A DNA stretch of 44,024 nucleotides from NCBI GenBank assembly GCA_001873285.1, contig MNYV01000104.1:1-44024 (forward strand), in the 5' to 3' direction. The DNA comes from Nitrospirae bacterium CG2_30_53_67 (lineage in GTDB: Bacteria > CG2-30-53-67). Below, piece by piece: positions 4,699 through 41,754 of this stretch; position 1 is the first letter of the stretch, and every line of letters starts with the position of its first letter. The notes under the pieces were generated by a model. That model worked only from the letters and a program-made list of their open reading frames with translations, searched no databases and was not told the origin of the DNA. The translations under genes and the position numbers were made by a program.

Positions 4699-4769
4699 GT
4701 TCCTTGACAGAAGATCGTTTTTCTGTTTTCATACTTAACCATGAGAGACAAAACCGAGGGACATCTTCT

Positions 4770-5978
4770 ATGAGCGATTTTTATCAGACCGGAGCGGTTG
4801 CGACCTTCCACCGCCTCGGCAAAAGCGACTTGGTGAGCCTGGAGTCAAAGCTGCTGGAAGCTTCGACAACCAGAGGGGTGACCCTGGTTCTTCCTTCTCT
4901 TTTTTCCGAAATTAAAGGAGAGGCGCTCAAAGAAATTTTAAGTGAGCTCTCGAAAGTCGAATATATCAGGGAAATCGTGGTTACGCTCGGTCCTGCAACT
5001 CAAGATGAGTTCCGAGAAGCCCGAAATTTTTTTTCCGTACTCCCCCAGTCCACCCGGGTGATCTGGAACAACGGCCCGAACATCCAGGCCCTGTACGAGA
5101 CCATGCAGGGGTACGGCCTATTTCCCGGAGAGGACGGCAAAGGGAGAAGCGCATGGATGGCCTATGGGTATATCATCGCGGAGGGAGGAAGCAAGATCAT
5201 CGCCCTTCACGATTGCGACATCCTGACCTATTCCAGGGAACTCCTGGGACGGCTCATATTCCCGGTCCTCTCCCCCCATCTCGACTTCGAATTCTGCAAG
5301 GGATTCTACAGCCGTGTGTCCCATAAAATGAACGGCCGCGTCACGCGCCTATTTGTCACGCCTCTGATCCGTGCCCTGATCAAGACGGTCGGGAGGCTGG
5401 ACATCCTTCATTATTACGACAGTTTCCGTTATCCTCTCGCTGGAGAGTTCTCTATGCTGACGGATCTGGCCCGTATCAACCGGATCCCCGCCGACTGGGG
5501 TCTGGAGGTCGGGGTATTGGCCGAGATCTACCGTAACTGTTCAGTCAAGCGGATCTGTCAGGTCGAACTCTGCGAGAATTATGACCACAAACATCAGGGG
5601 CTTTCACCGGCCGACCCTGAAAAGGGCCTCAACAAGATGGCCATCGATATTGCGAAGAATATCTTCAGGACCCTCTCGGGCGAGGGAATTATTTTTACAC
5701 CGGGCTTCTTCAACACCCTGTGCGCGACCTATCTCCGTATCGCCCAGGATACCATTGCCCGATATCACGGAGACGCCATCATCAATGGGCTGGAGTACGA
5801 CCGGCACGAGGAGGGGACTGCCGTAGAGGTCTTTACTGAAGCCATCCGGAGGGCCGGCGAGATCATCACTCAGGACCCCCTGGGGCCGCCGCAGATCCCG
5901 GCCTGGAACAGGGTCTTTGCTGCTATTCCGGATTTTGCGGAACGAATTCTTGAAGCGGTAAGAACGGACAATCCATAA
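4770..5978 (+). CDS. gpgS: Glucosyl-3-phosphoglycerate synthase (GT81 family)
   Basis: A 402-residue glycosyltransferase recognised from motifs conserved in GpgS: SDFYQTGAVATFHRL at the N terminus, LPSLFSE (41-47), the metal-binding DxD in LHDCDI (D148, D150), and FRYPLAGEFSM (about 219-229), which lines the 3-phosphoglycerate site in the family. The expected reaction is NDP-glucose plus 3-phosphoglycerate to glucosyl-3-phosphoglycerate, in the cytoplasm. I start at ATG 4770 because the family begins there and a GAGG lies about ten bases upstream; an in-frame ATG at 4704 lacks support. It sits ahead of a GT2 enzyme and a HAD sugar phosphatase, which fits a compatible-solute pathway. Sugar donor specificity (glucose against mannose) cannot be read from the sequence. 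Confidence 0.85.
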   Translation: MSDFYQTGAVATFHRLGKSDLVSLESKLLEASTTRGVTLVLPSLFSEIKGEALKEILSELSKVEYIREIVVTLGPATQDEFREARNFFSVLPQSTRVIWNNGPNIQALYETMQGYGLFPGEDGKGRSAWMAYGYIIAEGGSKIIALHDCDILTYSRELLGRLIFPVLSPHLDFEFCKGFYSRVSHKMNGRVTRLFVTPLIRALIKTVGRLDILHYYDSFRYPLAGEFSMLTDLARINRIPADWGLEVGVLAEIYRNCSVKRICQVELCENYDHKHQGLSPADPEKGLNKMAIDIAKNIFRTLSGEGIIFTPGFFNTLCATYLRIAQDTIARYHGDAIINGLEYDRHEEGTAVEVFTEAIRRAGEIITQDPLGPPQIPAWNRVFAAIPDFAERILEAVRTDNP

Positions 5979-6083
5979 GACCGGATCAAACAATCCGCCG
6001 GTTTTATACATAGAGTAATAAATAAATTCGCATATAGGGCGATAGAACAAAGCAGACCGAGGCGCGACGAAGTCGAGGAGTGA

Positions 6084-6102
6084 GGCGTACTGATCGTACG
6101 CC
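6084..6102. repeat. Hairpin in an intergenic repeat between gpgS and the GT2 gene
   Basis: GGCGTAC (6084-6090) and GTACGCC (6096-6102) pair around a five-base loop. The surrounding 5979-6197 gap contains purine-rich CGACGA/GAGGA runs on both sides of the hairpin. The style resembles dispersed repeats of deltaproteobacterial genomes, but no second copy is seen in this window. No gene is apparent in the gap, and no promoter is obvious. Confidence 0.6.
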
Positions 6103-6197
6103 GCAACGACGAGACGAGGAAGCAACAAAGGTATGCAAAGTTCTGTTGCTCTGTATAACCGGCGTTCTGAAACCAAAGGTATAAACGGTATCAAGAA

Positions 6198-7475
6198 ATG
6201 AAGTTTGACACATCACTTCGGCCCTACACGGTCAAGCGGATCGAAGAGATCGACCGGGTTGACATTCTTGTGGGCATTCCCTGCTACAACAACGAAGCTA
6301 CCATCCAGCATGTAATCCGGATGGTCTCCCACGGCATACGGGACCATTACAGGGACAAAAGAGCCCTGATCATGATAGCCGACGGCGGGTCCACGGACGA
6401 TACCCGGGAGATGGCCAGGGAGTTCGAGATCCAGCCTTGGCAGGAAAAGATCGTCAGTGTATACCGGGGTCCTGCCGGGAAAGGGACGGCCCTGCGGTCC
6501 ATCTTCGAGGCCGCGGACCGGCTCGATGCCGCGTCCTGTATGGTGGTGGATTCGGACCTTAGAAGCATCACTGTGGAATGGGTAAAATCCCTCCTGGATC
6601 CGGTGCTGAACCACGGCTATGACTTCGTCACTCCCATTTATACACGCTACAAATATGACGGGACCATCACCAACAACATCACCTACAACCTGACCCGAGC
6701 CCTGTACGGAAAGCGGATCCGCCAGCCCATCGGCGGGGACTTTGCCTTTTCACCGTCTTGTTTCCGTTACCTGCTGGCCCAGGACGTATGGGATACGGAC
6801 GTGGCCCGGTTCGGGATCGATATCTGGATCACCACCAGCGCCGTCATCAATCCGTTCAAAATCTGCCAGGCACACCTCGGCGTAAAGATCCATGACGCCA
6901 AAGACCCTGCCTCACACCTTGCGGTCATGTTTCTCCAGGTCATCGGGACCCTCTTTTCCCTCATGGAGAAGAATGAACACTACTGGAAGCCAATCAAGGG
7001 TTCCACACCCACAGAGATCTTCGGCGCCCCCGGGAACGTCAAGCCCGAACCCATCCACGTGGACAAGGAACTTCTGGTCAGCCGTTTCAAGTCCGGATAC
7101 CGCAACTTCGGCGTGCTTTACGAAAAGATCTTCACACCCGAATGTTTCCAGATGATCCGCAAGGCTGCCCGTCTTTCACCCAACCGATTCATGTTTGGAA
7201 CCGACACCTGGGTCCGGACCCTTTATGAACTGGCTTCCACCTATCACAAGTGGGGCCACAACCGGCGCCGTCTCCTGGAACTGGCCATCCCTCTTTACTT
7301 CGGCCGCGTAGCCTCTTTTATCAACCGCACCTGGGAAATGGACTCTGAAGAAGCCGAACAGGTGGTCGAGGAGCAGGCCCTGCGGTTCGAGGAGTACAAG
7401 GGCTACCTGATCCAGCGATGGGAGGAACCCTTTGAAGAGGACGAGGCAGTCAACCACACGCTCCAAAAAATATAA
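6198..7475 (+). CDS. GT2-type glycosyltransferase, likely mannosylglucosyl-3-phosphoglycerate synthase (MggA-like)
   Basis: A 425-residue GT-A fold enzyme. Motifs: VGIPCYNNE (25-33) and ADGGSTDDT (61-69) for the nucleotide-sugar, GPAGKGTALR (91-100), and the metal-binding DSD in VVDSDLRS (116-123). GGDFAFSP (about 180) and an extended helical C terminus follow. No transmembrane segment is apparent, so it is probably cytoplasmic. Placed between gpgS and a mannosylglycerate-type phosphatase, it best fits the enzyme that adds a second sugar to glucosyl-3-phosphoglycerate in the mannosylglucosylglycerate route described in Petrotoga. This is inference from family and order; it could instead be another retaining glycosyltransferase of the same osmolyte set. 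The last 44 bases overlap the phosphatase gene. Confidence 0.7.
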   Translation: MKFDTSLRPYTVKRIEEIDRVDILVGIPCYNNEATIQHVIRMVSHGIRDHYRDKRALIMIADGGSTDDTREMAREFEIQPWQEKIVSVYRGPAGKGTALRSIFEAADRLDAASCMVVDSDLRSITVEWVKSLLDPVLNHGYDFVTPIYTRYKYDGTITNNITYNLTRALYGKRIRQPIGGDFAFSPSCFRYLLAQDVWDTDVARFGIDIWITTSAVINPFKICQAHLGVKIHDAKDPASHLAVMFLQVIGTLFSLMEKNEHYWKPIKGSTPTEIFGAPGNVKPEPIHVDKELLVSRFKSGYRNFGVLYEKIFTPECFQMIRKAARLSPNRFMFGTDTWVRTLYELASTYHKWGHNRRRLLELAIPLYFGRVASFINRTWEMDSEEAEQVVEEQALRFEEYKGYLIQRWEEPFEEDEAVNHTLQKI

Positions 7476-8301
7476 ACCGGCCGGCCCCGGCCCTCGGATC
7501 GTGATCTTCACAGACCTGGACGGGACCCTCCTTTCCGCCGAAACCTATGAACCCGGCCCATCCCTGGAAGCGCTCCGGCAGTGCAGGAAACTTCAGATCC
7601 CCGTGATCTTTGTCTCCAGCAAGACCCGGGCTGAAATGGAACGGCTCCGCAAGGAATTAGACAACTCCGACCCCTTTGTCTCTGAAAACGGAGGGGGCGT
7701 TTTTCTACCCAGGGAGACATGGGAAAAACCGCAGGGATTTGTGGAGGGTGGGAACTACTGGAGTCTTTGGATCGGCGTTCCGCACGCGGCCATCTTGAAG
7801 GCCCTCGATGCCGCAGTTAAAAGGTGTTCCGCCCGGATCGAGCGATTCTCGTCCATGAGCATAGACCGGATCATGGAACGGACCGGCCTCTCTCCCGATG
7901 AGGCCCGTCTCGCCCGGATGCGGGAATTTGATGAGCCTTTCCTGATTCCCGATCAAAGCGACAAGATCATCACCGGCCTCGAACAGGAAATCCGGAAAGC
8001 CGGATTCAATTTAACCCGAGGCGGACGCTTTTATCACGTCATGGGAGGGTGCGACAAGGGGAAGGCCGTGCGCCGGATCATGGATCTCTACAGGGGCCTG
8101 AATCCCGACGTCTGCTTTGCTGCGGTCGGAGACGCGGAGAACGACCTTCCCATGCTGCTGGAAGCGGATCTTCCGTTTCTGGTCAGGAAACCCGACGGAG
8201 AATATGACAAGGCCGCGGTCTTGAACCGCGTGATTATAACGCAGGGGATCGGGCCGCAAGGCTTTTATGAGGCTGTGAGAAACATCATAACTAATTCTTA
8301 A
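7432..8301 (+). CDS. HAD-family sugar-phosphoglycerate phosphatase (MpgP/MggB-like)
   Basis: A 289-residue HAD hydrolase with a Cof-type cap. FTDLDGTLL carries the nucleophile D28 and D30; FVSSKTR (60-66) holds motif II; K209 in GGCDKGKA is motif III; GDAEND (233-238) is the metal-binding motif IV. SENGGGVF (84-91) is typical of mannosyl-3-phosphoglycerate phosphatases. It would remove the phosphate from the glycosylated 3-phosphoglycerate made by the two upstream enzymes and release the neutral-chain osmolyte. The start overlaps the GT2 gene by 44 bases in another frame, implying coupling; a basic 20-residue leader precedes the first strand, so a later start is possible, although no better start codon is evident. 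Confidence 0.85.
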   Translation: MKRTRQSTTRSKKYKPAGPGPRIVIFTDLDGTLLSAETYEPGPSLEALRQCRKLQIPVIFVSSKTRAEMERLRKELDNSDPFVSENGGGVFLPRETWEKPQGFVEGGNYWSLWIGVPHAAILKALDAAVKRCSARIERFSSMSIDRIMERTGLSPDEARLARMREFDEPFLIPDQSDKIITGLEQEIRKAGFNLTRGGRFYHVMGGCDKGKAVRRIMDLYRGLNPDVCFAAVGDAENDLPMLLEADLPFLVRKPDGEYDKAAVLNRVIITQGIGPQGFYEAVRNIITNS

Positions 8302-9037: not shown

Positions 9038-9844
9038 CTATTTCCCCTCTTTGTCGTAATCTCTGTAGTAGTAATAAGAATCCTGAAGGGACTCTGGTGC
9101 GGAAATCATGTTCAGGCAGATCCCAAGAAGCTTCTCCCTTTCTATCTGGGAGATGGCGCGCAGGACATACTCCCTGGGAGTGACCCCGTCCTGGACGACC
9201 ATCAGGACCCCCTCTACCAGAGGAATAAGGATAGACGCATCGGTAAAAACATTGATGGGAGAGGTATCCAGAATGATAAAACGATCCTCGTACCGGGATT
9301 TGATCTCACGGATCAACTGGGACATCCTCTCCGAGCTCAGGAGTTCCGAGGGATTCTCCGGCGGTTGACCGGATGGGAGGAGGATCAACTTGGGAATCTC
9401 CGTCTTCACAAGAAGCTCAGGGATCTCCGCCTCACCCCGTAGAAAATCCACAAGGCCCTTCTTGGCTTCAATGCCCAGATAGGTATGAACGCCAGGTTTG
9501 CGAAAGTCGGTATCCATCATCAAGACCGTCTCATTCATCCCCTGAGCCACAGAGACGGCCAGATTGAGCGCCGTCGTGGTCTTCCCCTCCCCTCGGGTGG
9601 CGCTGGTCACCATCAGGGTGTTCTCCATTCTGCTTCTCATCTTTTTCATGACCTGCGTTCGCAGCCGTTTAAACTGTTCCGCGGCCAGCGATTTTGAATC
9701 GAGAATGGTCACCAGGTATGCGCTCAGCTTGGAAAAATCCAGGGACTTGTCGTTCCATTCCTTCTGCAGTTTGAATAGATCCGGGCTGCTCCTGGATTCC
9801 CGCTCGCGGATGGCCTTTTCCAGCCCTTTTTCGATACTTCTCAT
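9038..9844 (-). CDS. EPS-associated tyrosine autokinase (CpsD/BY-kinase, exosortase-locus type)
   Basis: A 268-residue cytoplasmic P-loop kinase of the BY-kinase family. SATRGEGKTT (81-90) is Walker A, VLMMDTDFR (107-115) Walker A' and FIILDTSP (189-196) Walker B. The C terminus carries a tyrosine cluster (Y257-Y260, Y263) expected to be autophosphorylated. Such kinases work with a separate membrane chain-length protein, which is encoded five genes upstream in the same operon (15472-17001), and their phosphorylation cycle controls polymer length and export. The AAAGGGGA ribosome-binding site lies six bases before the ATG. It is the last gene of the operon, 12 bases after the GspE-like gene. 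The N-terminal 60 residues are helical and not conserved in all relatives. Confidence 0.85.
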   Translation of the reverse strand: MRSIEKGLEKAIRERESRSSPDLFKLQKEWNDKSLDFSKLSAYLVTILDSKSLAAEQFKRLRTQVMKKMRSRMENTLMVTSATRGEGKTTTALNLAVSVAQGMNETVLMMDTDFRKPGVHTYLGIEAKKGLVDFLRGEAEIPELLVKTEIPKLILLPSGQPPENPSELLSSERMSQLIREIKSRYEDRFIILDTSPINVFTDASILIPLVEGVLMVVQDGVTPREYVLRAISQIEREKLLGICLNMISAPESLQDSYYYYRDYDKEGK

Positions 9845-9856
9845 GGACTTCCCCTT

Positions 9857-11605
9857 TTAACTTTTACGGACGTTTTCCAGGTCCGAAATATTCAGGACCT
9901 CTTCATACGTGGTCACACCGCGGATCACTTTCCGAAGGGCATCCTGATAGAGCGATACCGTCCCTTTTCTTAAGATGGCATCCCGGATCTCTTTCCGTGA
10001 AGCCTTTTCCAGAATCAACTGCCTGACCTCTTCATTCAGAACGGAGAGTTCAAATATCCCGGAATGACCGTGGTACCCGGTGAATCCGCAGTCCTTGCAG
10101 CCGGTCCCCCGATGAAAGGTGATCTCCCCGGTATTCACAAGAGGCTGGATATCCTCCAGGATCTTCTTGGGAGGGATGAAGTCTCCGGAACAGTTTGGAC
10201 AAATCCTTTGAACAAGCCTCTGGCTTAGAATGGCGGTGATGGCCTGAGAGATCAAAAAAGGCGGAATCCCCATGTCCATCAGATGAAGAACGGCGCCGGC
10301 GGCATCATTGTAATTAAGCCTCCCGAATACCAGGGTCCTCGACAGAGAGGCCTGAAGCACGTATTCGATAGGTTTGGCATCATTCATATCTCCGAGCATC
10401 ACGACATCCGGGTCCTGCGCCAGGAGGGAACGCACACCGTCGGTCAATGTGAGACCGGCCTTCTCATTGGGCTGGCCTTGAAAAATTCCTTCGATCAGAT
10501 TCTTGATCGGATTTTCAAAGGTATAGATGCTCCTCTCCTTCGTATTCAAATCATTCAGGACCGCATACAGGGTCGATGTCTTCCCGCTGTTGTTCGGCCC
10601 CACCAGCAGGATAAAGCCTCGTTTTAGGCTGATCAGACTCTTGAACTCCTGTAAAACCTCGCTCTCCATGCCGAGGGAGTCCAGATTGACGGCCTCCTGG
10701 TATTGCTTGTGAAGACTCAGGACCGCGCTCTCCCCATACCGGGTGGGGAAGGTGGAGACCTTGACATCCACGAAACGGCCCTTGGAACGGACCTGGAAAT
10801 AGCTCTCCTGCGGAATATGATGTTTGGTGATATCCAGCGAACTGAGGATTTTCAGCCGGTTGATGATATTGACATGGTATTTCTTCGGAGGCGTAATCAA
10901 AGGAACCAAAATCCCGTCCGTCCTTAAGCGGATCTGCAGGCTCTCCATGAAGGGCTCGATATGCACATGAGAAGCCTGCTTGTCCAATGCGGTCAGAAGC
11001 ATGAGATTCACCAGCCGGACAATGGGGGTATCCTCCGAAGACGTGATCAGATCCTCTATGTCGGCGCTCTCTTCATCCTCACGCTTTAAAATTTCTATAT
11101 CCACTTCCTCCTCGGCTGCCAGTTCGGCCTCCCAATCCAGATCCTTTGCTTCCTCTTCCTCTTTCCGATAGTAAGTATCCAGGGCCCTCTGGATGGATAT
11201 CTCCGCTGTAACCACGGGCGCGATTTTCAACCCGGTGATGAAGGACATCTCATTGGCCACAACAATGTCATGCGGGTTGGCCATGGCCACCGTAAGGAGC
11301 TTGTCTTTGCGCTGGACGGCGATCACCTTGTGTTCTCTGCAATATTTTTCCGGGATCAGACGGACGATATTCAGATCCAGCCTGTACTGTTCCAGACTGA
11401 TGAAGGCGACATTATGCTGTCTGGCCAGAAGATAGTCCAGGTCCTCAGGGGTGAGAAAACCCATCTTGATCAGCACGGAACCCAGCCTCTCCTTGGTCCG
11501 CTTCTGCTCATCGAGGGCGAGACTCAACTGCTGGTCATCAACCACTTCGAGCTCTTTTAAAAGCTCCCCGATCTTCTGTCTTGAGGTTTCATCAACCAAA
11601 TCCAT
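9857..11605 (-). CDS. Divergent GspE/PilB-like ATPase with eroded catalytic motifs
   Basis: A 582-residue protein with the domain order of type II secretion/type IV pilus ATPases: MshEN-type N-terminal domain (1-140), an acidic linker (148-190), then the ATPase core, with a four-cysteine zinc knuckle (C469, C472, C503, C506). Walker A is intact as GPNNSGKT (336-343). Other motifs depart from the family: the Asp box EDPVE reads ENPIK (364-368), LRQDPD reads LAQDPD (395-400), the Walker B block GEIRD reads GDMND (405-409), and the His box (TLHTN) reads RLNYN (429-433). Nucleotide binding seems likely, normal hydrolysis doubtful. The setting inside an EPS operon rather than with pilus or secretion genes suggests a regulatory or scaffolding role. 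Its start is tightly coupled to the upstream gene. Confidence 0.8.
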   Translation of the reverse strand: MDLVDETSRQKIGELLKELEVVDDQQLSLALDEQKRTKERLGSVLIKMGFLTPEDLDYLLARQHNVAFISLEQYRLDLNIVRLIPEKYCREHKVIAVQRKDKLLTVAMANPHDIVVANEMSFITGLKIAPVVTAEISIQRALDTYYRKEEEEAKDLDWEAELAAEEEVDIEILKREDEESADIEDLITSSEDTPIVRLVNLMLLTALDKQASHVHIEPFMESLQIRLRTDGILVPLITPPKKYHVNIINRLKILSSLDITKHHIPQESYFQVRSKGRFVDVKVSTFPTRYGESAVLSLHKQYQEAVNLDSLGMESEVLQEFKSLISLKRGFILLVGPNNSGKTSTLYAVLNDLNTKERSIYTFENPIKNLIEGIFQGQPNEKAGLTLTDGVRSLLAQDPDVVMLGDMNDAKPIEYVLQASLSRTLVFGRLNYNDAAGAVLHLMDMGIPPFLISQAITAILSQRLVQRICPNCSGDFIPPKKILEDIQPLVNTGEITFHRGTGCKDCGFTGYHGHSGIFELSVLNEEVRQLILEKASRKEIRDAILRKGTVSLYQDALRKVIRGVTTYEEVLNISDLENVRKS

Positions 11606-11647: not shown

Positions 11648-13279
11648 TCAGTTTTTTTCTATGTCCATTTTCAGCGACATGACGATCAGGTTGGCCAGTG
11701 AGACCATCACCTGCATGTCGGGATCTCTCTCTTGGACTTGGGCGGTATCGGCATACCATAACGCCACAATCCTCCCCATGATCTCCACGGGATAAAGGAA
11801 ATGCCACGCGGGCCTTTTTTCGAGAAACCGGTTCAAAAACTTATTGTACTCGCGCTCTTCAGGCGGCGGGCCGGCAAATATCCCTTTCCCCTCTGTATAG
11901 AGACCTTTCAGCAAGGGGATCTGATCAAACTCCACGGAGACACGTTTGACCTTATCTGCAAAATCGGCGCGTAAGGATGACCTCCCGGCATACCCTTCCA
12001 GATATTTTTTCTTCCAGATAAAAAGGGCCGTATGGTCGTATCGTCCGGCCATAAAATCCAGAACTTCTTCAATGGCTCGGTCGACATTCCCCTCTTTCAC
12101 GAGCATGCTGCTGACTTCATAAAGAATTTTTTGAATCTGGGCATCTTCAATGACCTGCCCCCCGAGACGCATGATCTCTGTTTCTCTATGGTAGAGACCC
12201 TCGATCAGATCGTCCTCGACAAATTCGGCTCTCTCGATGAAATATTCCTGATAATATTGATGAATACTGATGTCGAGACAATAGACCAGTTCCGCAAGAA
12301 ACGACTGGAAGATCTGTTCAAAGTTTTGAGATGAAATTACGGAAAGGTCCGGCTTGACCAGACAGAAAATCCCGCCTGAAAAAAGAATCTTTCTTCGCAG
12401 GTTGGAAATCGGATACGAGGTGCAGACCAGGATGGGAACTTCGGGATGCTTTTTATGGAGACTCTCCATGAATGACAGGCCCTCCAGTTTCATGGAGGCC
12501 TGTTCATGGGGGAACCCGATATCCGTGACCACAATCGGGCTGTATCCCTTCTCAAGCAGCCGATCGATCTCAAACCGCGCCTTTTCGAGGCTGCTCGTCC
12601 CCTTCACCTGAAAATTTCTTTTGGCCAGATCGTCCTTGATCATCATCCTCCATTTTGCATCCCCCTCCACCAGCACGATCATCATCTTCGGTTCAAAGAC
12701 CTTGGCCCTTGAAAGGGTATGCTGAATCTCCTGATATAACCGGTGGTTGATCCTTGGATTCGGATGCGACTCAATCCTGTCCAGCGGGGTCTTGGCCGGC
12801 AACGATTTCAGTTCTTTAACCCGCTTTTTCTTCTCTTTCAGGATGGTGTTCGGCCGGATCAGCACCAGAGGCGGCCGTTTGGGGGGTATCCTTTCAAAAG
12901 TGAACCGCCCTTTTTCCCACATCATCAGATGAACGACCGCTTCCTCGATCTGCTGCTCTACCACTTGTCTCACCCGTTCCGGGGGGAGCAGATTTTTCTC
13001 AAAAAGGATTTCTCCCAGAGAACCATCATTTCCATTCTCCTGGTCGCGAAGAGCCTGCCAGAGATCCGAGGGATGAATAGCGCCTTCCTGAATCAGCCTC
13101 TGCCCGAGCCGTTCCCCGGCATAGGGATAGTCTGCAGAATAGATCAGACCGTTCTCGAATAAAACCTCTCCGATCCCCTGTTCGCTTTTCAGAAAAAGGG
13201 CCCCCGTCTGCTCTTCGGCCTCGGCCTGCTCCATGAGCGCATCCAAGGGGATATCCTGAATAAAACCTGCGATTTCCAT
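11648..13279 (-). CDS. DUF4388 (PATAN) - receiver - GAF-like regulatory protein
   Basis: A 543-residue soluble protein in three parts. Residues 1-135 are a DUF4388/PATAN domain (GALFLKSEQGIGEVLFENG; LGEILFEKNLLPPERV). Residues 197-312 are a response-regulator receiver domain with acidic E205/D207, phosphoacceptor D253 in VVTDIGFP, T287 and the K309-P pair, so it should accept a phosphoryl group. Residues 385-535 look like a GAF-type sensor domain. There is no DNA-binding output domain, so signalling probably goes through protein contacts. The GAGG ribosome-binding site lies four bases before the ATG. It lies between the ExeA-like ATPase and the GspE-like ATPase genes. The histidine kinase just upstream (17367-19391) is a natural candidate partner, by inference only. 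Confidence 0.75.
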   Translation of the reverse strand: MEIAGFIQDIPLDALMEQAEAEEQTGALFLKSEQGIGEVLFENGLIYSADYPYAGERLGQRLIQEGAIHPSDLWQALRDQENGNDGSLGEILFEKNLLPPERVRQVVEQQIEEAVVHLMMWEKGRFTFERIPPKRPPLVLIRPNTILKEKKKRVKELKSLPAKTPLDRIESHPNPRINHRLYQEIQHTLSRAKVFEPKMMIVLVEGDAKWRMMIKDDLAKRNFQVKGTSSLEKARFEIDRLLEKGYSPIVVTDIGFPHEQASMKLEGLSFMESLHKKHPEVPILVCTSYPISNLRRKILFSGGIFCLVKPDLSVISSQNFEQIFQSFLAELVYCLDISIHQYYQEYFIERAEFVEDDLIEGLYHRETEIMRLGGQVIEDAQIQKILYEVSSMLVKEGNVDRAIEEVLDFMAGRYDHTALFIWKKKYLEGYAGRSSLRADFADKVKRVSVEFDQIPLLKGLYTEGKGIFAGPPPEEREYNKFLNRFLEKRPAWHFLYPVEIMGRIVALWYADTAQVQERDPDMQVMVSLANLIVMSLKMDIEKN

Positions 13280-13382: not shown

Positions 13383-15443
13383 CTAAGATCCCTGCAAGAT
13401 CTTCCGTATGATCCTGTTGAATCGTCTCCCAAGAGCCTTGTTTTCTCGATGAGAGTCTTCTGATTCCTGACCCGATGATGCTCTCACCATCGCGTGGAAA
13501 AAAACGGGGCCTCGGTCCCCTCGAGTCAAGGGCGCGTCCTTCCCTCCAATTCTCAAGATCATGTTCCTCAGTTCGTCAAGCTTTTTTTCGAGAAGCCGTT
13601 CTTTTCCCAGCCATGCCCCTGTGCCCGAGTCTTCTGCCGCGGCCTGAACCTCGAACGCCCTGAAACTTTTCTTGGATGCTTCAATATTTTTAAGGAGCTT
13701 CTCTTCCTTTTTTTTGAGTTGGACGTAGTTCTTGTCGATCCGTTCCATTCCGGTCGGGAGATCAGCCTCTTCCGCTCGAATGGTCTCCATGATTTGCTTC
13801 TGAAAATCAAGGGAGTCCATATCCGATTTCAAACTGTCAATCTGAGAAATCAGATCCAAAAAGAGTTCCTCCTTCAAATCAAAAGAGGCCTGATCTCCTG
13901 GTCCTGAAATTCGAACGGCGCCGGCCGCCGGCCGAGGGGTCCCCTTCTCCAGAAGAAGGATCTTCTCCGTGAGTTCTTCCTCTTTTCTTCGCACGGATTG
14001 CTGCTGCTTTTCCAGTTCTTTCAGACGATCTTCTATGGATTTGTCCTGACCGATGGCCTCCAGCAGAACCTTTTTGTTCTCCAACTCCTGAATGATCCCT
14101 TTCAGGTCCTCCATCTTTCCATCCAGCTCTTCTTCCCTCTCTTTCAGCCTCGCCTGGACCTCCCCCGGTTCTTCTATTCTCTTCTTAAAGATCTCCTTAT
14201 CTTCAACACCCCCGCCGGCTGCTTCCGGTCTTCCGGAAGCGGGGTCCTCCTGTTCGCCGGATGGCGCGGGACGCAGCTCGGCCTGCTGTATTTTCTCCAG
14301 AACCTCGTTCCTCTTCTCCTCAATGCTCTCTTTCAGGGTATTGATTTCATCCAGCCGTTTGGAAACTTCGGATAATTTCTGGTGGATTTCGCTCTCCTTC
14401 CTGAAGAGCATCTGTTCACGATCCTGCAGGTTGAAGAGATTTCCCTTGGCCTGCATCTCCTCTTCCATATTCAGGAGCCGCTCGTAAATCAACTGATTTT
14501 CTTCCCCCTTCTGGATATAAACCTTCTGCATCTGATCGTACAGGGTCTGAAACTTCTTATTCAGCTCAATGACGTGCAGATCCAGAGGATCCGTCTCCGT
14601 GCTTTTACGGGGCAGGACCTGAGCGGCCGAGGGGCTGCCGATCTCCTGCAACTCTTGAATCACGCCGTCCATGATCTCACCGTCAACGATCTTTTTTTCT
14701 TCCACGTATCCGAGCCGGAGACCCGCATCGGATATCACATTGATCAACCGGGGGATCCCTTTTGAGTAGGCATAAATTTTCTTCAACGCCTCAGGCGTAA
14801 ATATCTCGGATGGGCGTCCGATAGCGACCGATAGACGATGGTTCACATACAGGGATGTCTCTTCTTCGCTCAGGGGCGTCATATGGAATTGCACCGTCAC
14901 CCTCTGCCTTAATTGTTCCAGATCCGGCAGATTCAGCTTGTACTTGAGCTGCGGTTGTCCCACCATCACGATCTGAACCAGTTTTTCCGTGCTGGTCTCC
15001 AGATTCGAGATCATTCGAAGCTCTTCCATGGCATCAATGCTCAGGTTCTGAGCCTCGTCTATGACCAGCAGGACCTCTCTCCGCTCCGAGTAGGCCTTGA
15101 GAAGAAGCTGCGTCAGCATGGAGATCATTTTGGGCTTGGTCTCGTCACGGGTTTCGATTCCGAACTCGTTGAGGATATGCTCGATCAATTCCTTGGCATT
15201 GAAATTCGTATTGATGATCCTGGCCACCAGACTGGTTCGAGGAAGGCCGTTCAAGAGGACGCGAAGAAGTAAAGTCTTCCCGGACCCCAGCTCGCCGGTG
15301 ATGACCACAAAACCATTCCGGTCTTCCAGTCCGTACTGCAGGTGCGAAATGGCTGCGCGGTGCACTTCACTCATGTAGAGAAAACGAGGATCGGGAACCA
15401 GCTTAAACGGTTTTTCCTTGAGACCATAAAATTTCGTATACAT
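13383..15443 (-). CDS. ExeA-like AAA+ ATPase of exosortase EPS loci, with long coiled-coil extension
   Basis: A 686-residue protein. Residues 1-270 are an ExeA/GspA-type AAA+ domain: the opening YGLKEKPFKLVPDPRFLY is typical, Walker A is TGELGSGKT (49-57), Walker B LLVIDEAQ (125-132), sensor MVGQP near 160, and the arginine-bearing IPRLINVISD near 230. Related ATPases accompany exosortase/PEP-CTERM EPS clusters. From about residue 285 to 620 the protein is highly charged and heptad-rich (EEKRNEVLEKIQ, LEELEKQQQ-type runs), predicting a long coiled coil that ordinary family members of about 270-350 residues lack. The C-terminal 60 residues are basic. It follows the chain-length gene by 28 bases. 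The ATPase function is clear; its partner is unknown. Confidence 0.82.
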   Translation of the reverse strand: MYTKFYGLKEKPFKLVPDPRFLYMSEVHRAAISHLQYGLEDRNGFVVITGELGSGKTLLLRVLLNGLPRTSLVARIINTNFNAKELIEHILNEFGIETRDETKPKMISMLTQLLLKAYSERREVLLVIDEAQNLSIDAMEELRMISNLETSTEKLVQIVMVGQPQLKYKLNLPDLEQLRQRVTVQFHMTPLSEEETSLYVNHRLSVAIGRPSEIFTPEALKKIYAYSKGIPRLINVISDAGLRLGYVEEKKIVDGEIMDGVIQELQEIGSPSAAQVLPRKSTETDPLDLHVIELNKKFQTLYDQMQKVYIQKGEENQLIYERLLNMEEEMQAKGNLFNLQDREQMLFRKESEIHQKLSEVSKRLDEINTLKESIEEKRNEVLEKIQQAELRPAPSGEQEDPASGRPEAAGGGVEDKEIFKKRIEEPGEVQARLKEREEELDGKMEDLKGIIQELENKKVLLEAIGQDKSIEDRLKELEKQQQSVRRKEEELTEKILLLEKGTPRPAAGAVRISGPGDQASFDLKEELFLDLISQIDSLKSDMDSLDFQKQIMETIRAEEADLPTGMERIDKNYVQLKKKEEKLLKNIEASKKSFRAFEVQAAAEDSGTGAWLGKERLLEKKLDELRNMILRIGGKDAPLTRGDRGPVFFHAMVRASSGQESEDSHRENKALGRRFNRIIRKILQGS

Positions 15444-15471: not shown

Positions 15472-17001
15472 TCACCTCAGAAAAACAGCAACGACCGCCG
15501 CCCCGATCAATAAGATAAAAAAAAGAACGGACCCGAAGATCCATCGCTTACGATTCATTTTTCTGATCTCTATCTCCCTTTCAGCCGTGATCACCGGAAT
15601 CGCAGACAGCACCGGAACCTTGTAGATCTCTTCGGCCTCTCGCACGCCTCTTGTGGACGTGTCAAAATAGTCTTTTAAAAAAATCAAACCGATCCCTGCG
15701 GCACAACCTGAAGCAAGACCCGCGGCAAGAAAGTGAAGATAATTCGGTTTGATCGGCTTGAGAGGAACAATGGCCGGATCGATCACCTGAAAGCGCGTTC
15801 CCCCGCTGCTGAACTCAAGATACTTCGATATCCTCGCCTCTTCATACCGTCTCAGCAGCATGTCATAAATATTCTCGTTGACATTGTAGTCCCGCTGCAA
15901 GGCCGCCAGTTGCTGCTCCTGGCTGGGGATACTGACGACTTTCTGCCCGTACTCTGCGATCTTTTTTTCCAAAGCCCCTTTCTTGGCTTCAAGCGTGCCG
16001 ATCGTAATACTGATGTTGTTGTAGTCTTCCTTTAATTTCTGGTGCAGGGGATTGAGGGTCGTTAAATCCCCGGACTTCGGCGGCGCTGGATCAGAACCTT
16101 TGCTCTGTTTGGCATCGGCTTCCTTCCTGAGATGATCGAGTTCCGTCTTGATCCGGACGACGTCCGGGTGTTTCTCCGTGTAATTGGCCAGAAACTGGCT
16201 CAACTGAAATTCCAGGATCTTGATCTTGTCTCCGGTGGATGAGGCCTCCCCGGTTGACATCGAGACCACCATCGGACTTTCGCTTGACATCTGTTTCTCA
16301 ATAAAGCCTTTTCTCCCCATGGCCTCCTGAATGGCCATATTGGTCTCGGCCAGGGTATCCCTGAGCCGGTCCAATTGAACGAGATTGGTATTCTGCTGAC
16401 CAGGCATCTCCCCGATATGCTCCTGTTTAAACTTCCGGAGCGCATCCTCGCTTTCTTCCAGTTTCGCTTTGTATATATCCAATTGTTTCCGGATGAAATC
16501 CACAGACGAAAAGGCCTCCTCCCTCTTGAGAGAAAGGCTTTCATCAATGAAAAGGTTAACAATGGTATTGGTGATTTTCATGGCCCTCTCGGGATCGGAG
16601 TCCTGAAACGAGACGGTAAAAAGTTCCGCTCCCTTCTTCATGATGGAAACGCCATCCCGGATGGATTGGATCAGTTTTTCCATCTCCAGATTGCCCTCCA
16701 TCCCCTTGTCCAGATTCAGTTTCCGGATGGTCTCGATCAGATGGGGCCGGCTGAGGGCCATCTCCTGCAGGGTCTTGAGCTGCCCCTGAAGGTCTTCGTT
16801 GACCACTCTCCGGGTTTCAATAGGATTGGGCTGCGGTTTTTGAACCTTGATGACCGTGCTCGACTCATAGATCTTCGGGAAAAAAAGACTGCTCAATGAA
16901 ACGAGAGAGAACACCAAAATGAACGGGGCAAAAAAGAACCTCTTGTTTCTGAGAAAGAGCGAATAATATTCCATGAAATCCATATTATGATGCTCGATCA
17001 T
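15472..17001 (-). CDS. Polysaccharide chain-length determinant (Wzz/GumC family, exosortase-locus type)
   Basis: A 509-residue inner-membrane protein. A first membrane helix (about 21-41) is followed by a large periplasmic, coiled-coil-rich region, the proline-rich PLKPIKPNY and a second helix (about 422-442), as in polysaccharide co-polymerases. A third hydrophobic stretch (487-508) closes the protein, as in the variant linked to PEP-CTERM clusters. It carries no kinase domain, so the separate autokinase at 9038-9844 would be its partner. It is the first gene of the EPS operon; a good sigma-70 promoter lies some 330 bases upstream with a repeat element in between. The ribosome-binding site is weak, and ATGs at codon 7 or 10 are possible alternatives. 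Confidence 0.85.
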   Translation of the reverse strand: MIEHHNMDFMEYYSLFLRNKRFFFAPFILVFSLVSLSSLFFPKIYESSTVIKVQKPQPNPIETRRVVNEDLQGQLKTLQEMALSRPHLIETIRKLNLDKGMEGNLEMEKLIQSIRDGVSIMKKGAELFTVSFQDSDPERAMKITNTIVNLFIDESLSLKREEAFSSVDFIRKQLDIYKAKLEESEDALRKFKQEHIGEMPGQQNTNLVQLDRLRDTLAETNMAIQEAMGRKGFIEKQMSSESPMVVSMSTGEASSTGDKIKILEFQLSQFLANYTEKHPDVVRIKTELDHLRKEADAKQSKGSDPAPPKSGDLTTLNPLHQKLKEDYNNISITIGTLEAKKGALEKKIAEYGQKVVSIPSQEQQLAALQRDYNVNENIYDMLLRRYEEARISKYLEFSSGGTRFQVIDPAIVPLKPIKPNYLHFLAAGLASGCAAGIGLIFLKDYFDTSTRGVREAEEIYKVPVLSAIPVITAEREIEIRKMNRKRWIFGSVLFFILLIGAAVVAVFLR

Positions 17002-17366: not shown

Positions 17367-19391
17367 TTAAATCTCATGACGGTATCTTCTCTGAGCTTTC
17401 CCGCCCTTCCGGTCAGCCGGTTCCACCTCCGGATTCCGGATCGGCAGGAAAAGGTTGACCCGGGCGCCTTTCCCCTTGGCGCTTTCGATTCCGACCTCCC
17501 CCCCGTGTTCTTTGATGACCTTGTCCACAAAGGAGAGCCCCAGACCGGTCCCTCCCCTACGCGTGGTGTAAAAGGGCTCGAAAATATGAACCATCGCCTC
17601 TTTGCCGATGCCCACGCCTGTATCGGAAAAAATGATCTCTATAAACCCCTTTCTCTTTCGCGCCGTTTTTGCGGAAATCTCAAGCTCGCCTCCTTTGGGC
17701 ATAGCCTGGATGGCATTCAAAATGATGTTGAGAAAAACCTGCTTCATCTGCTTATGGCTGACCGGAATATCGGGAATGGATTTGGAAAACTCCTTCCGGA
17801 TGATGACGTTCTTTTCTTTGGCCTGATAACGGATAAACCGGAGGACCTGATTGAGCAGGATCCGGATGTCGATCGGGGTGGTGACCAGATGGGGGACATT
17901 GCTGTATGAAAGAAATTCCGTGGTCATGTCCGAGAGACGTTCGATTTCCTGTCCCACCACATTCAGTTTCTCGGCAATCTTTTCTTTCTCGGGGGTCTCT
18001 TTTTCCAGCTCTTTTTTTAAGAGCTCAAGGTAGATCACGATGGCGTTCAAGGGATTCTTGATTTCATGGGCCACGCCGGCAGCCACGGTTCCCATGACGG
18101 AGAACCTCTCCATCTGCATCAGCCTGGTGTGAGCCTTGTGGAGCTGGCGGTTGGAATCCACCAGTTGGAAAATCTTCTCCTGCAGAACGGAGTAGAGCTT
18201 GGAATTGGAGATGGCCGTTGCGGCCTGATGCGAAAAGATACTCAGCATCTGCAGGGTGTCTTTTTCTATTTTCTTTCTGGAAAAGCGGTTATCGGCGATG
18301 ATCACGCCGATGAGGGTTTCATTCTCAATTAGGGGGATGGCGACGAAACTCGTTGTATTTCCCATGGTCTTTCTCAAATCCGGATGGACCCGGTTCTTCT
18401 GCTCCCCCCGGTTCGCGACCACAACCGGCCCTTTCTCAAAGAGGGCGGCTACCGGAAATTTTTTCTTTTCCCGGGTCGGAAAGGAAAAAGACCGGGTGAG
18501 TTCATCGAACGGGGAGTTTCCTGTCTCGATCGGGATCCCCTGTTTTCGGATCTTCTCAAAGAGGCTCCTTTCGTCTTTTGCCGGCCGCTTCTTCTTCGTC
18601 ATCAGGGCCTCTTCCTGCGTAGAAGGCCCCACTCCCATTTTCCCTTCCAGATGAGTCATGTTCTCGTTTAAAAGTAGGAGCATGGCCCGGCTGAACCCGA
18701 ATCCCTGCGGCGCCGTGAGAGAGGTCAGGATGACAAAGAGCTTTTCATCCAGAGAAAGGGGGCTTTGCAGAATTTGATTCAGGTCATAAAGTGTGATCAG
18801 CTTTTCATTCTGCCTCTTGATGTGCCTGGTTGCCTCATCAATCTGCTGAAGAGTCCGGAGGTTCTCCGCCGAGGTCTCCGCAATCAGCTTCGCCATGGCC
18901 ACCAGAAGCTCCATGGTCTTGCTGACCTCTTCTTTGGAAACCGTATGAATCCCTTCTATGATTTTCTGAGGGATCGCCAGATCTAAAATGGCCTGGCGGA
19001 ACTTTTTCTGAGGAAACGGACTTCCATCATCGAGAAGCTGGCTCGTACAGCCGTTGAGCACCGCCACAATCCGGCTTTCAACCCAGACCGGGGCCGTGAC
19101 CTTGACCATCCCGGCATGGCAGGAGAAGATGGAGGACTTCCCTTCCTCCATCACGCGCTTGTGCCCCTTGTACAGGCTTTCCCTGCACCGGAAACTCCCT
19201 TCCTTGTGGTCCAGGACATACTTGCAGAATGGAGGACGGTCCGGGGGAGGGGACGTAAGAAAATTCCCTTCGGTGTCGAGAAGAAACAGGGTCTGCCCCA
19301 GGCCTAAGGATGCTTTTTTCAGGATCCTCTCGAAAGAAAGAAGATCCAAATCGTAGATGCTCCACTCTTCATTGTGCTTTTTCTTTTTCAT
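17367..19391 (-). CDS. Soluble PocR-GAF sensor histidine kinase
   Basis: A 674-residue kinase without membrane segments. Residues about 15-180 are a PocR sensory domain with four cysteines (C56, C69, C91, C115) that could bind a metal or ligand. Residues about 205-400 are a GAF domain. The dimerisation domain holds the phosphoacceptor H442 in AGVAHEIKNPLNAI, and the ATPase domain shows the N box NIILNAIQAMP, DTGVGIG, FEPFYTTRRGGTGLGLS. I use the ATG at 19391; a GTG four codons earlier is possible. No cognate DNA-binding regulator adjoins it, but the EPS operon starts immediately downstream and encodes a receiver protein (11648-13279). By analogy with the PrsK kinase of other PEP-CTERM systems it may govern matrix genes; the domain set differs from PrsK. 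Confidence 0.85.
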   Translation of the reverse strand: MKKKKHNEEWSIYDLDLLSFERILKKASLGLGQTLFLLDTEGNFLTSPPPDRPPFCKYVLDHKEGSFRCRESLYKGHKRVMEEGKSSIFSCHAGMVKVTAPVWVESRIVAVLNGCTSQLLDDGSPFPQKKFRQAILDLAIPQKIIEGIHTVSKEEVSKTMELLVAMAKLIAETSAENLRTLQQIDEATRHIKRQNEKLITLYDLNQILQSPLSLDEKLFVILTSLTAPQGFGFSRAMLLLLNENMTHLEGKMGVGPSTQEEALMTKKKRPAKDERSLFEKIRKQGIPIETGNSPFDELTRSFSFPTREKKKFPVAALFEKGPVVVANRGEQKNRVHPDLRKTMGNTTSFVAIPLIENETLIGVIIADNRFSRKKIEKDTLQMLSIFSHQAATAISNSKLYSVLQEKIFQLVDSNRQLHKAHTRLMQMERFSVMGTVAAGVAHEIKNPLNAIVIYLELLKKELEKETPEKEKIAEKLNVVGQEIERLSDMTTEFLSYSNVPHLVTTPIDIRILLNQVLRFIRYQAKEKNVIIRKEFSKSIPDIPVSHKQMKQVFLNIILNAIQAMPKGGELEISAKTARKRKGFIEIIFSDTGVGIGKEAMVHIFEPFYTTRRGGTGLGLSFVDKVIKEHGGEVGIESAKGKGARVNLFLPIRNPEVEPADRKGGKAQRRYRHEI

Positions 19392-19403
19392 CAGGGATAC
19401 CAC

Positions 19404-32262: not shown

Positions 32263-32853
32263 TTATTTCCTTTGGCGAAAATATCCCATTCCAGCCAAAC
32301 TGCTTATGGCGAGCAGTATGGCTGTAGAAGGCTCCGGAACCGGAGCGACACTGGCATTTTGGATGTTAGCACTCAGAGCGTTCCCGGCTGAATCTCCCAA
32401 GGCGTTGATGGTCAAACTAAGAGAACTCGTTCCTGTGGTGAGGGTATCAAAGGTCAAAGTAGCCAAAGTGAAGCTGTCCGCCTGAAACAGATCGAGATCC
32501 CCCGGCATATCAAGGGATAGTTCAAAGAGATTTAGAACTCCAGGAACAGAGTCATCAACACTTGTAATGCTACCGAGGCCAAAAAGATCCAATTGATCTC
32601 CCAATCCCGGATCGCCAAAGGTTGCGTTGTTGAAGTACAATATAGTTGAATCAAAGAGGATATTCAGATCAAATGTACCAAGAGACGGGGGTGTGCCATT
32701 ACCAAGACCTGAGACATATAGATCTACACTCACAGGATTTCCCACAGGCACTGTTTGAAATGATGGAGTTAAACCAACCGTAAAGGCGTGTAAATTCGAA
32801 TAAGGAAGTAATAGAAAAAACAACGCAATAACTACCATTACCAGTCTTCTCAT
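32263..32853 (-). CDS. PEP-CTERM sorting-domain protein with cohesin-like domain
   Basis: A 196-residue exported protein: signal peptide (RRLVMVVIALFFLLLPYSNL), a beta-sandwich of about 140 residues with cohesin-like features (VGNPVSVDLYVSGLG; FDLNILFDSTILYF; LATLTFDTL), and a C-terminal PEP-CTERM signal from residue 172 (VPEPSTAILLAISSLAGMGY then FRQRK). Exosortase would cleave at the PEP motif and release or anchor the protein in the extracellular matrix. GGAGG six bases before the ATG at 32853 supports this start over one seven codons upstream. A perfect sigma-54 promoter precedes it. Cohesins bind dockerins, and the operon just downstream encodes a dockerin-type protein. The cohesin call is by pattern, not by alignment. 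Confidence 0.85.
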   Translation of the reverse strand: MRRLVMVVIALFFLLLPYSNLHAFTVGLTPSFQTVPVGNPVSVDLYVSGLGNGTPPSLGTFDLNILFDSTILYFNNATFGDPGLGDQLDLFGLGSITSVDDSVPGVLNLFELSLDMPGDLDLFQADSFTLATLTFDTLTTGTSSLSLTINALGDSAGNALSANIQNASVAPVPEPSTAILLAISSLAGMGYFRQRK

Positions 32854-32971
32854 TGTCTCCCTCCATTTCAGCAATGTTTAAGCATTTATTGTTTGCTCGA
32901 AAAAAAATGTAATGAACTCAAATGGATATATTTCAAGGAGCATGACGCTTTTTTAATCTATAATTTCATCA

Positions 32972-39516: not shown

Positions 39517-39708
39517 CTATTCTTCAGGAGGCACGAGGAGGCGCTCCTCTGCAAGAGAATGAAGAGGCCGCTCCGAAGTGGTCTTGTACTTTTTAGGCGC
39601 CCGTTTACGCTCCAGGATGACCTCGGGTGTCAGCTCCCCCTTTTTAAGGTCGGTCTTCCGAAACGTTGTTTGAAGACTGCCGCTTCCTGTTTTTTTACGC
39701 GAGGACAT
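39517..39708 (-). CDS. Small basic hypothetical protein
   Basis: A 63-residue lysine/arginine-rich protein (KKTGSGSLQTTFRKTDLKKG; ERKRAPKKYKTTSERPLH) with an acidic end. I do not recognise it. It is supported mainly by its position: the ATG overlaps the ExeA-like ATPase stop by 14 bases in another frame, and the operon has no other gene to its left. There is no clear ribosome-binding site, so translation would rely on coupling. It may be a DNA- or protein-binding accessory of the ATPase pair, or a chance frame. Confidence 0.4.
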   Translation of the reverse strand: MSSRKKTGSGSLQTTFRKTDLKKGELTPEVILERKRAPKKYKTTSERPLHSLAEERLLVPPEE

Positions 39709-40642
39709 TTTTTATAAGCTCTTTGCCGATTCTCTTCTTCTTTTCCAGGAAGGCTTCCATCAAACTGTTATGGCAGATGCGGTTGATGTCTCTGCAGACA
39801 CCGCCGGTGCTTTTATAAATTTCCATGAAGGCCTCATCTTCAAATATAGGCTCCTTGCATCCGGCGCTTAAGAGCCTGAACTTGATATACTGCGATGTTT
39901 CATCAGGCCCCATGGGCAAAAGCTGAACCTTCAGATACATCCGGTTTCTTAAGGACTCGTAGGACGGGTGGGACAATCGTCTCAAAAAAAGGTCCTCTGC
40001 AAACAGGATGCAGGTGGAGAGCTTTTTCTGGGGGGTTTCAAGATTGCTGATGGTTCTAAGGATATGCAGGGACTCCGAACTCAGGAAATGCGCCTCGTCG
40101 ATCAGGATCACGAGTTTCCGGTTCTGGCTGTATAGGTCGATAATCCGGCTGTGCAGCAGGTCGATGAGCGCCTGCGTCTGCGAAGGAAGATTGTCGTTTT
40201 CCTCGATCAGTTCTCTTAAAATCTCCTTCAGGAGGGAGGTCTTGCTCATCCCGGGAGTGACGAGGACCATCACAGTCCGGTACTCAGCAGGATTGAGATG
40301 TTTTAAGAGCATCAAACTCATCAGGGTCTTGCCGGTCCCGCTGGCGCCGTGCACCAGACCCAGGGAAATATCCTCCTGAATCGTCATACTCATTTTCTTA
40401 AACGCCGTCTCATGAACCGAACTCCCATAAAAAAACTCCGGGTTCACGGAATCGGAAAAGGGATGGGTCTCAAAACCAAAATATTCGAGTTGATTCACGG
40501 ATGAGTTCTCCCGTGCGCCCTTTTCAGATTCCTGAGCTTTCAAATGGCTTTCCGATATTAATTCAGCGAGATCTTGAGAAGGGGGCGGGTCCTCAACCGG
40601 CTGGGCTGGAACCTCGTGCAAGGCATTGGACATTTCTGACAT
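39695..40642 (-). CDS. ExeA/GspA-like AAA+ ATPase
   Basis: A 315-residue AAA+ protein. After a poorly conserved, acidic 45-residue N terminus, LEYFGFETHPFSDSVNPEFF (52-71) opens the ExeA-type domain; Walker A is HGASGTGKT (98-106), Walker B LVILIDEAH (177-185), and GGVCRDINRICHNSL (280-294) carries the sensor 2 arginine. ATG 40642 has AAGGAG eight bases upstream. Relatives assemble secretins or work beside ParA-type proteins. It follows the MerR-MinD gene by 50 bases, and the two would form a functional pair. There is no coiled-coil extension, unlike the ExeA-like protein at 13383-15443. No secretin or pilus gene adjoins, so the partner is unknown. Confidence 0.82.
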   Translation of the reverse strand: MSEMSNALHEVPAQPVEDPPPSQDLAELISESHLKAQESEKGARENSSVNQLEYFGFETHPFSDSVNPEFFYGSSVHETAFKKMSMTIQEDISLGLVHGASGTGKTLMSLMLLKHLNPAEYRTVMVLVTPGMSKTSLLKEILRELIEENDNLPSQTQALIDLLHSRIIDLYSQNRKLVILIDEAHFLSSESLHILRTISNLETPQKKLSTCILFAEDLFLRRLSHPSYESLRNRMYLKVQLLPMGPDETSQYIKFRLLSAGCKEPIFEDEAFMEIYKSTGGVCRDINRICHNSLMEAFLEKKKRIGKELIKNVLA

Positions 40643-40692
40643 GGTATCTTCTCCTTTTCTTAAGTTGACCGGTCTGGTATAAAATCGATTGA

Positions 40693-41754
40693 TCATAGAA
40701 AGGACGCCTCCAAGGGCACAAACAGTTCGAACAATTCGGTTTTCTTCCCTCCTTTCCATACCTTTTTTTTCTGAAGCAGTCTCTGTACGATCTCTTCAAT
40801 GCAGAGGACGGCAGGGGAATCCGGACAGAGATTCACCAGGGGCGACCGGGACTGGATGGCCTTCTCCACATTGGAATCTTCAAAGATATATCCTCCTCTC
40901 TCCACATTTTTTCCCAGAAAGTCGTCCGCGCAGCCGATGACCTTGTTAAAAACCTGGTCCGCCTGAGATCTGCTTCGGACCCGGTTCACGATCAGGTTCA
41001 TGTTTCCGGCTATTTGCTGCTGCACGGCAATCCGGATCAGTCCGAAGGCATCCAGGGTCGAGGCGATATTGGGCGTCGCAACCGTCAGGATTTCATCCGC
41101 AAGGCTGATGAATCGAAGGACATTCCTGGAGACTCCCGCGGAGGTATCGATCACCAGGACATCGGTCATTTTCCCGAGCCTGGTGATCTCATCAATGATG
41201 TGGTTCCGCTGCGATTCCTTAAGCTCGGCAAGCTGGAAAAGCCCGGACCCGCCCGGTATCAGTTTCATGCCGCAGGGGCCCTCCGTGAGGATTTCCTCAA
41301 TGCTTGCACGCCGATTGAGAAGGTCGAGAATGGTATATTTTGGATTGACGCCGAGAAAGAGGTGGGCATTGGCAAGGCCGAGGTCCCCGTCAAAAAGCAC
41401 GGTCCGGACCCCGTGCCTGGCGAGCATGACGGCCAGATTCACAGAAATGGAAGTCTTTCCCACCCCGCCTTTCCCGCTGGTGACGGCAATGACCCAGACC
41501 CCTTTGCCTCGCTCCAGGCAGAGACGCTGAAACTCTGATTTGATTTGGAAGATACTGAGGTCGGGACGATTGAGGAGTTGGTTGATCTTCTTTAAGATAT
41601 TGATTTGTTTCCGAGTATAAAGCGTCGGGAAAGGAGATAGCCTCGGAAAACCGAAAAAGGCGCCGAACTCCCGTTCGATGAAACGTATCCGGCTTTTCTC
41701 CAAAACCAGGAAATGACAAACATCATCAAGAGTATAAAACTCTTTCTCTTCCAT
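40693..41754 (-). CDS. MinD/FlhG-like ATPase with N-terminal MerR-like DNA-binding domain
   Basis: A 353-residue fusion. Residues 6-70 are a MerR-type winged helix (FYTLDDVCHFLVLEKSRIRF; LYTRKQINILKKINQLL). The rest is a deviant-Walker ATPase: VTSGKGGVGKT (91-101), FDGDLGLAN (121-129), VLVIDTSAG (199-207). It most resembles the FlhG/MinD group that positions cell-pole structures or counts flagella. The amphipathic membrane-targeting C-terminal helix of MinD is not evident; the end is KVWKGGKKTELFELFV. The ATG at 41754 has AGGA four bases upstream; an earlier in-frame ATG at 41889 would add 45 non-family residues. It is paired with the ExeA-like ATPase. Function, perhaps regulated assembly of a surface machine, is inference. 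Confidence 0.82.
   Translation of the reverse strand: MEEKEFYTLDDVCHFLVLEKSRIRFIEREFGAFFGFPRLSPFPTLYTRKQINILKKINQLLNRPDLSIFQIKSEFQRLCLERGKGVWVIAVTSGKGGVGKTSISVNLAVMLARHGVRTVLFDGDLGLANAHLFLGVNPKYTILDLLNRRASIEEILTEGPCGMKLIPGGSGLFQLAELKESQRNHIIDEITRLGKMTDVLVIDTSAGVSRNVLRFISLADEILTVATPNIASTLDAFGLIRIAVQQQIAGNMNLIVNRVRSRSQADQVFNKVIGCADDFLGKNVERGGYIFEDSNVEKAIQSRSPLVNLCPDSPAVLCIEEIVQRLLQKKKVWKGGKKTELFELFVPLEASFL

Follow-up and report, generated by a model that had tools for sequence, protein, structure and literature searches.

A conserved PilB/GspE-type pseudo-ATPase subfamily tied to XrtA-type polysaccharide loci in two phyla

The active site of the type IVa pilus extension ATPase PilB has been described for the G. 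metallireducens protein, in which the ASP-box residue E357 is a Mg2+ ligand, the catalytic glutamate is E395, R271 and R286 sense the nucleotide of the adjacent subunit, H420 contacts the gamma-phosphate, a T327-T411 contact spans the subunit interface and, in one interface, Arg257 touches E357 of the adjacent chain (McCallum et al., PMC5424180). M. xanthus PilB in addition regulates exopolysaccharide (EPS) independently of pili (PMC5544727; reviewed in PMC11656802), and it is the case we found in which control of exopolysaccharide by a PilB is separate from its work as a motor. The ATPase-dead Walker A mutant K327A of that protein gives strong EPS signalling, better than is seen without the mutation, and the Walker B mutant E391A, which binds ATP and does not hydrolyse it, does not restore EPS (PMC5544727). 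The MshEN type of c-di-GMP receptor is built from two tandem 24-residue motifs, RLGxx..G..L..L..Q, with a 5-residue spacer between them, and Arg9 is a c-di-GMP contact (PMC5013675).

The DNA analyzed here (the window) is a 44,024-nucleotide stretch from Nitrospirae bacterium CG2_30_53_67 (contig MNYV01000104.1), and one of its minus-strand reading frames, with an ATG start, encodes a 582-aa protein with T2SSE (PF00437, 304 bits) and MshEN (PF05157, 71 bits) domains (Table 1). The solved PilB structures 5TSG and 5ZFR align across its full length (best E ~1e-118), and it is ~37% identical to G. metallireducens PilB. Its best resemblance is to the PilB model TIGR02538 (454 bits, far below the equivalog cutoff of 676), and the GspE model TIGR02533 gives 444 bits, which does not reach the equivalog cutoff of 630. 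It shares with PilB the full-length MshEN plus T2SSE homology, the P-loop and the zinc tetracysteine (C469, C472, C503 and C506, invariant in the alignment of the family described below), but its Mg ligand, catalytic Glu, arginine fingers and HIS box are replaced and it has no pilus genes nearby. The domain architecture is also that of the type II secretion ATPase GspE/EpsE, from which it differs in lacking the catalytic residues and in lying outside any gsp operon. PilU and other PilT-dependent secondary ATPases are likewise accessory members of this ATPase superfamily; PilU, however, acts with PilT at pili, whereas the window protein is PilB-like, degenerate and polysaccharide-linked. The host genome (2.36 Mb, 95% complete) encodes three further full-length T2SSE proteins, all with ordinary motifs. 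An AlphaFold model made from a two-sequence alignment had a pLDDT of 33 and was discarded.

Table 1. Coordinates of the pseudo-ATPase gene, its sequence motifs and the neighboring genes in the window
Feature	Position	Strand	Remarks
XrtA-type tyrosine autokinase (BYK)	9038..9844	(-)	TIGR03018 221 bits (cutoff 230.65, just under); TIGR01007 147 bits (cutoff 108, over)
PilB/GspE-family pseudo-ATPase	9857..11605	(-)	MshEN-type N-terminal region + T2SSE core, altered catalytic motifs, zinc tetracysteine
Altered HIS box RLNYN, residues 429-433	10307..10321	(-)	H420->N431
Altered LAQDPDVVMLGDMND region, residues 395-409	10379..10423	(-)	R385->A396, catalytic E395->D406, R397->N408
Altered ASP box ENPIK, residues 364-368	10502..10516	(-)	Lys368 in place of Mg-ligand Glu (PilB E357)
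Walker A GPNNSGKT, residues 336-343	10577..10600	(-)	catalytic Lys342 + Thr343 retained
Tandem MshEN c-di-GMP-type motif, residues 11-63	11417..11575	(-)	motif I KIGELLKELEVVDDQQLSLALDEQ, 5-aa spacer, motif II RLGSVLIKMGFLTPEDLDYLLARQ
DUF4388 (PATAN-like) protein, internal MshE-type motif + receiver domain	11648..13279	(-)	orthologues in the same four genomes as the pseudo-ATPase
XrtA/PEP-CTERM-system-type AAA ATPase, C-terminal extension	13383..15443	(-)	TIGR03015 302.5 bits (cutoff 324.5); Walker A/B intact
XrtA-system polysaccharide chain length determinant (PCP)	15472..17001	(-)	TIGR03007 382 bits (cutoff 279, over)
PocR-GAF histidine kinase (HK), adjoins cassette	17367..19403	(-)

The initial annotation of this gene had pointed to an intact GPNNSGKT and to ENPIK, LAQDPD, GDMND and RLNYN in place of motifs that are almost invariant in secretion and pilus ATPases. 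The letters are exactly as it quoted them (LAQDPD is residues 395-400 and GDMND residues 405-409), and the replaced positions were invariant in a comparison set of 40 further T2SSE proteins of full length (G. metallireducens PilB, three proteins of the same genome, and others from this and other phyla), all 40 of which keep D354, E357, R385, E395, R397, T411, H413, H420, R271 and R286. Alignment with PilB places K368 of the window protein at E357, D406 at E395, K282 at R271, S297 at R286, N431 at H420, N338 at T327 and S422 at T411. The position that coordinates Mg2+ is the final one of ENPIK, where Glu has become Lys, and the arginine fingers and R257 are also lost, none of which the initial annotation had noted. 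In the six known members of the pseudo-ATPase group (five from the window family and one, G681, from a second phylum; below) the Mg-ligand position is Lys, or Asn in one member; the arginine fingers are K/S in the five family members and D/T in G681; H413 and H420 of the HIS box are T and N in the family and T and V in G681; R257 is Tyr in all six; and the catalytic E395 is Asp in the five and Glu in G681. Altogether, every member has lost 22 residues, most of them close to the active site, whose positions are near-invariant among the 40 relatives. The Walker A Lys and Thr are invariant in the six, with NN or PD where GxxxxGK[ST] usually has TG. Since the neighboring AAA ATPase retains GSGKT and DEAQ and the autokinase retains its P-loop and Tyr cluster, only the pseudo-ATPase has lost its catalytic motifs. 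Hydrolysis is presumably absent; weak hydrolysis is possible because the E395 to Asp change is conservative and G681 keeps the Glu. That Lys, found repeatedly where the Mg ligand would be, allows Mg-independent nucleotide binding is speculation.

The gene is present in five of the six species of the family, the window genome and G001, G002, G004 and G005 (70–74% identity), and the only match from a contig scan (L009) has the same score as the orthologue in G005 and probably comes from that genome. The phylum is represented by eight species, and the two that belong to its other family give matches only at the ordinary PilB level. The altered motifs are identical in the five except for Asn in place of Lys368 in one and variation at 396 and 409; being common to five orthologues, the substitutions are not chance. 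The residues with a known role in PilB that are replaced in the window protein are changed in all five, and most are changed in the distant G681 member as well. For close pairs the pseudo-ATPase dN/dS is 0.067–0.072, among the lowest of the operon genes (0.059–0.164 for the other neighborhood genes in the same pairs), and in the two pairs compared its orthologues are 72–74% identical versus 54–69% for the other cassette proteins.

A profile search of 391 further genomes gave one outlier, G681, at 595 bits (next best 475), and the taxonomy that its genome shares with the window genome is the domain only. The G681 protein (L157:15773-17467) shares 43–47% identity with the group and no more than 38% with ordinary relatives; its sequence includes GPPDSGKTST and TYENPIK, R257 is replaced by Tyr, the arginine fingers are missing and Thr/Val take the place of the HIS-box histidines, but the catalytic Glu is retained. 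Its gene adjoins a TIGR03015 ATPase, with a TIGR03006 deacetylase close by, in a locus that also encodes a Wzc-type kinase and a TIGR03013 glycosyltransferase; the glycosyltransferase, ATPase and deacetylase are over their cutoffs, and this is unmistakably an XrtA polysaccharide locus. A 23S rRNA-intervening-sequence protein gene (L157:17496-17894) lies between the pseudo-ATPase and deacetylase genes. The six members form one clade after all motif columns are masked (SH-aLRT 100), so convergence of G681 and the window family was rejected, and the second phylum has both the substitutions and the link to polysaccharide genes by common descent. A long stem (1.72 changes per site, support 100/100) leads to the clade, within which the branches are short, as would be expected if a change of function was followed by constraint. 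Because the changes recur in orthologues and in a second phylum, dN/dS is ~0.07 and the members form one clade, the proteins constitute a conserved pseudo-ATPase subfamily linked to polysaccharide loci, and neither decay nor a one-off accounts for them. The new subfamily suspected by the initial annotation thus exists, with five members beyond the source genome, and we found no homologue with standard motifs in the same position.

About 770 genomes were sampled in the profile searches, with the best three candidates per genome scored, and few of them carry the pseudo-ATPase. In the first 386-genome sample the best matches outside the family reached ~432–446 bits, and all of these keep the key residues in the alignment. 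Eleven of 80 TIGR03015 loci examined have a nearby full-length T2SSE gene, in every case with canonical motifs. A scan of viral contigs found no further subfamily sequences, and the best plasmid tblastn match was 32% identical. The subfamily may be commoner than seen, since three candidates per genome were scored and members that rank below ordinary PilBs could hide. A literature search, whose coverage left out most subscription journals, found no paper on such a pseudo-ATPase in polysaccharide loci.

The gene's neighbors are of EPS type, as had been proposed: a tyrosine autokinase with an intact P-loop and the C-terminal Tyr cluster SYYYYRDY, an XrtA-type ATPase and a chain-length determinant were confirmed, and no pilus or type II secretion genes were found among the annotated window genes. 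The TIGR03007, TIGR03015 and TIGR03018 types thus co-occur here, the first over its cutoff and the other two somewhat below theirs. Read along the minus strand the order is HK, PCP, XrtA-type ATPase, DUF4388/receiver protein, pseudo-ATPase and tyrosine autokinase, and the cassette order is identical in four further genomes (the G001 contig ends within the autokinase). The term "EPS operon" used in the initial annotation stands for an export/regulation cassette only; no exosortase or polymer glycosyltransferase was found in the window cassette, and the host genome's single exosortase is on another contig (C71). The question it raised, whether the protein always neighbors an exosortase-type EPS locus, has a positive answer for XrtA-type kinase/ATPase genes in six of six loci, but in the window family the exosortase itself is encoded elsewhere in the genome. 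In G003, of the same genus, no orthologue of the pseudo-ATPase or the DUF4388 protein was found, and the HK, TatD and metG genes are still adjacent to one another (L139, G003:C153), with a DUF1573 protein gene and then a MoaA-like gene beyond the HK. Because the cassette is absent as a block there while its flanking genes are present, it is gained or lost as one unit, and the HK, which is retained in this sister species, is not strictly a member. On the plus strand at 4704-8301 the window has genes for a GpgS-like synthase, a GT2 and an MPGP-family phosphatase, likely a glucosyl/mannosylglycerate (compatible solute) set, which resembles glucosylglycerate synthesis, not polymer synthesis, and which also adjoins the cassette in G002 and G005.

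The N-terminal region matches NCBIfam NF053729 at 56.7 bits (cutoff 38) and has the tandem 24-residue motifs and 5-residue spacer of MshE and its relatives (PMC5013675). Motif II of the window protein is perfect by that description and motif I has three changes (R9 to K, L10 to I and G18 to E). Motif II is fully kept across the six members, but the group differs from the described receptors in motif I, where Arg9 is Lys/Gln and Gly18 is Glu/Lys/Asn. With the contact Arg9 and Gly18 so replaced, c-di-GMP binding by the pseudo-ATPase, predicted only, may be weak or lost. Signalling by c-di-GMP is probably present in the host, whose genome has 13 GGDEF matches. The DUF4388 protein has an MshE-type motif inside or beside its PATAN-like domain (NF053729, 43 bits, cutoff 38), which places two possible c-di-GMP sensors side by side; in its G005 orthologue Glu replaces the apparent phospho-acceptor Asp of the receiver domain.

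Because nearly all of the ATP-burning parts are lost and yet the protein is strictly conserved in a polysaccharide cluster in two phyla, what was a motor probably now senses or regulates the production of slime. We lean towards the explanation that it is a PilB/GspE-type hexameric ATPase paralogue that has lost hydrolysis and is kept as a dedicated regulator of the XrtA-type exopolysaccharide cassette. A PilB-like ring would still be formed (the zinc motif and core fold are conserved), its intact P-loop would bind nucleotide without productive hydrolysis, the MshEN domain would sense c-di-GMP or a similar ligand, and the resulting conformation would be passed to the tyrosine autokinase, the chain-length protein and the XrtA-type ATPase; in this way the ring could regulate how the polymer is made or exported, a role comparable to the one that M. 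xanthus PilB has alongside its motor function. Both are PilB-type proteins, and the EPS role in M. xanthus is independent of ATP hydrolysis (PMC5544727), but there a pilus motor doubles as the signal and here a separate, degenerate paralogue sits inside a polysaccharide cassette. By motif the window protein is closer to the M. xanthus E391A state than to the Walker A mutant, which counts against this explanation. More tentatively, and with rather less than even confidence, we propose that this is an undescribed PilB/GspE pseudo-ATPase branch, in at least two phyla, that forms a nucleotide- and c-di-GMP-gated ring controlling the XrtA-locus autokinase/chain-length complex, a hydrolysis-free, dedicated form of M. 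xanthus PilB EPS signalling. A natural pseudo-ATPase fixed in polysaccharide loci would mean that evolution has separated the signalling role from the motor role; its cassette names the likely partners (autokinase, chain-length protein and XrtA-type ATPase), and a ring of the secretion type would become a candidate for the regulation of XrtA/exosortase-type polysaccharide systems.

Other explanations seem less satisfactory. A purely structural role, as a ring-shaped hexamer that hydrolyses no ATP, senses nothing and acts as a cytoplasmic scaffold beneath the chain-length protein/kinase complex, is consistent with the conserved core fold positions and zinc tetracysteine, with the lost Mg and arginine-finger residues and with the adjoining PCP, BYK and AAA ATPase genes; it is nonetheless unlikely, since a mere scaffold would not need the Walker A Lys/Thr and MshEN motif II that all six members keep, and all six have Tyr for Arg257, the PilB interface contact to E357. 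An altered but working motor, in which Asp406 (Glu in G681) is the base, another metal ligand is used and slow hydrolysis drives a rotary step in polysaccharide export, could rely on the conservative E to D change, the Glu of G681 and the intact P-loop. We think it improbable, given Lys at the Mg ligand, the loss of both arginine fingers and both HIS-box histidines, and the fact that no PilC/GspF-type membrane partner was found among the annotated window genes. The location of the gene in a polysaccharide cassette, away from pil/gsp genes, in all six genomes and the divergence of interface-lining residues make it very improbable that the protein modulates the pilus or type II secretion motors of the same cell, for instance by entering mixed rings with canonical PilB that link pili to polysaccharide, even though three canonical T2SSE proteins are encoded in the same genome and PilT/PilU are a precedent for paired ATPases (PMC11656802). 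A decaying duplicate, or pseudogene in the making, would explain why so many catalytic residues are lost, but it is scarcely credible: the protein is full-length in six of six members, the same altered letters are fixed, the clade's branches are short after its long stem, and the dN/dS value led us to reject pseudogene decay.

Elsewhere in the window, a second TIGR03015-like AAA ATPase gene (150.7 bits) overlaps a MinD/ParA-like gene at 39695-41889 (-) in an ExeA-like pair, and the gene at 32263-32874 (-) encodes a small PEP-CTERM-motif protein (PF07589, 21.8 bits) that may be a substrate of an exosortase.
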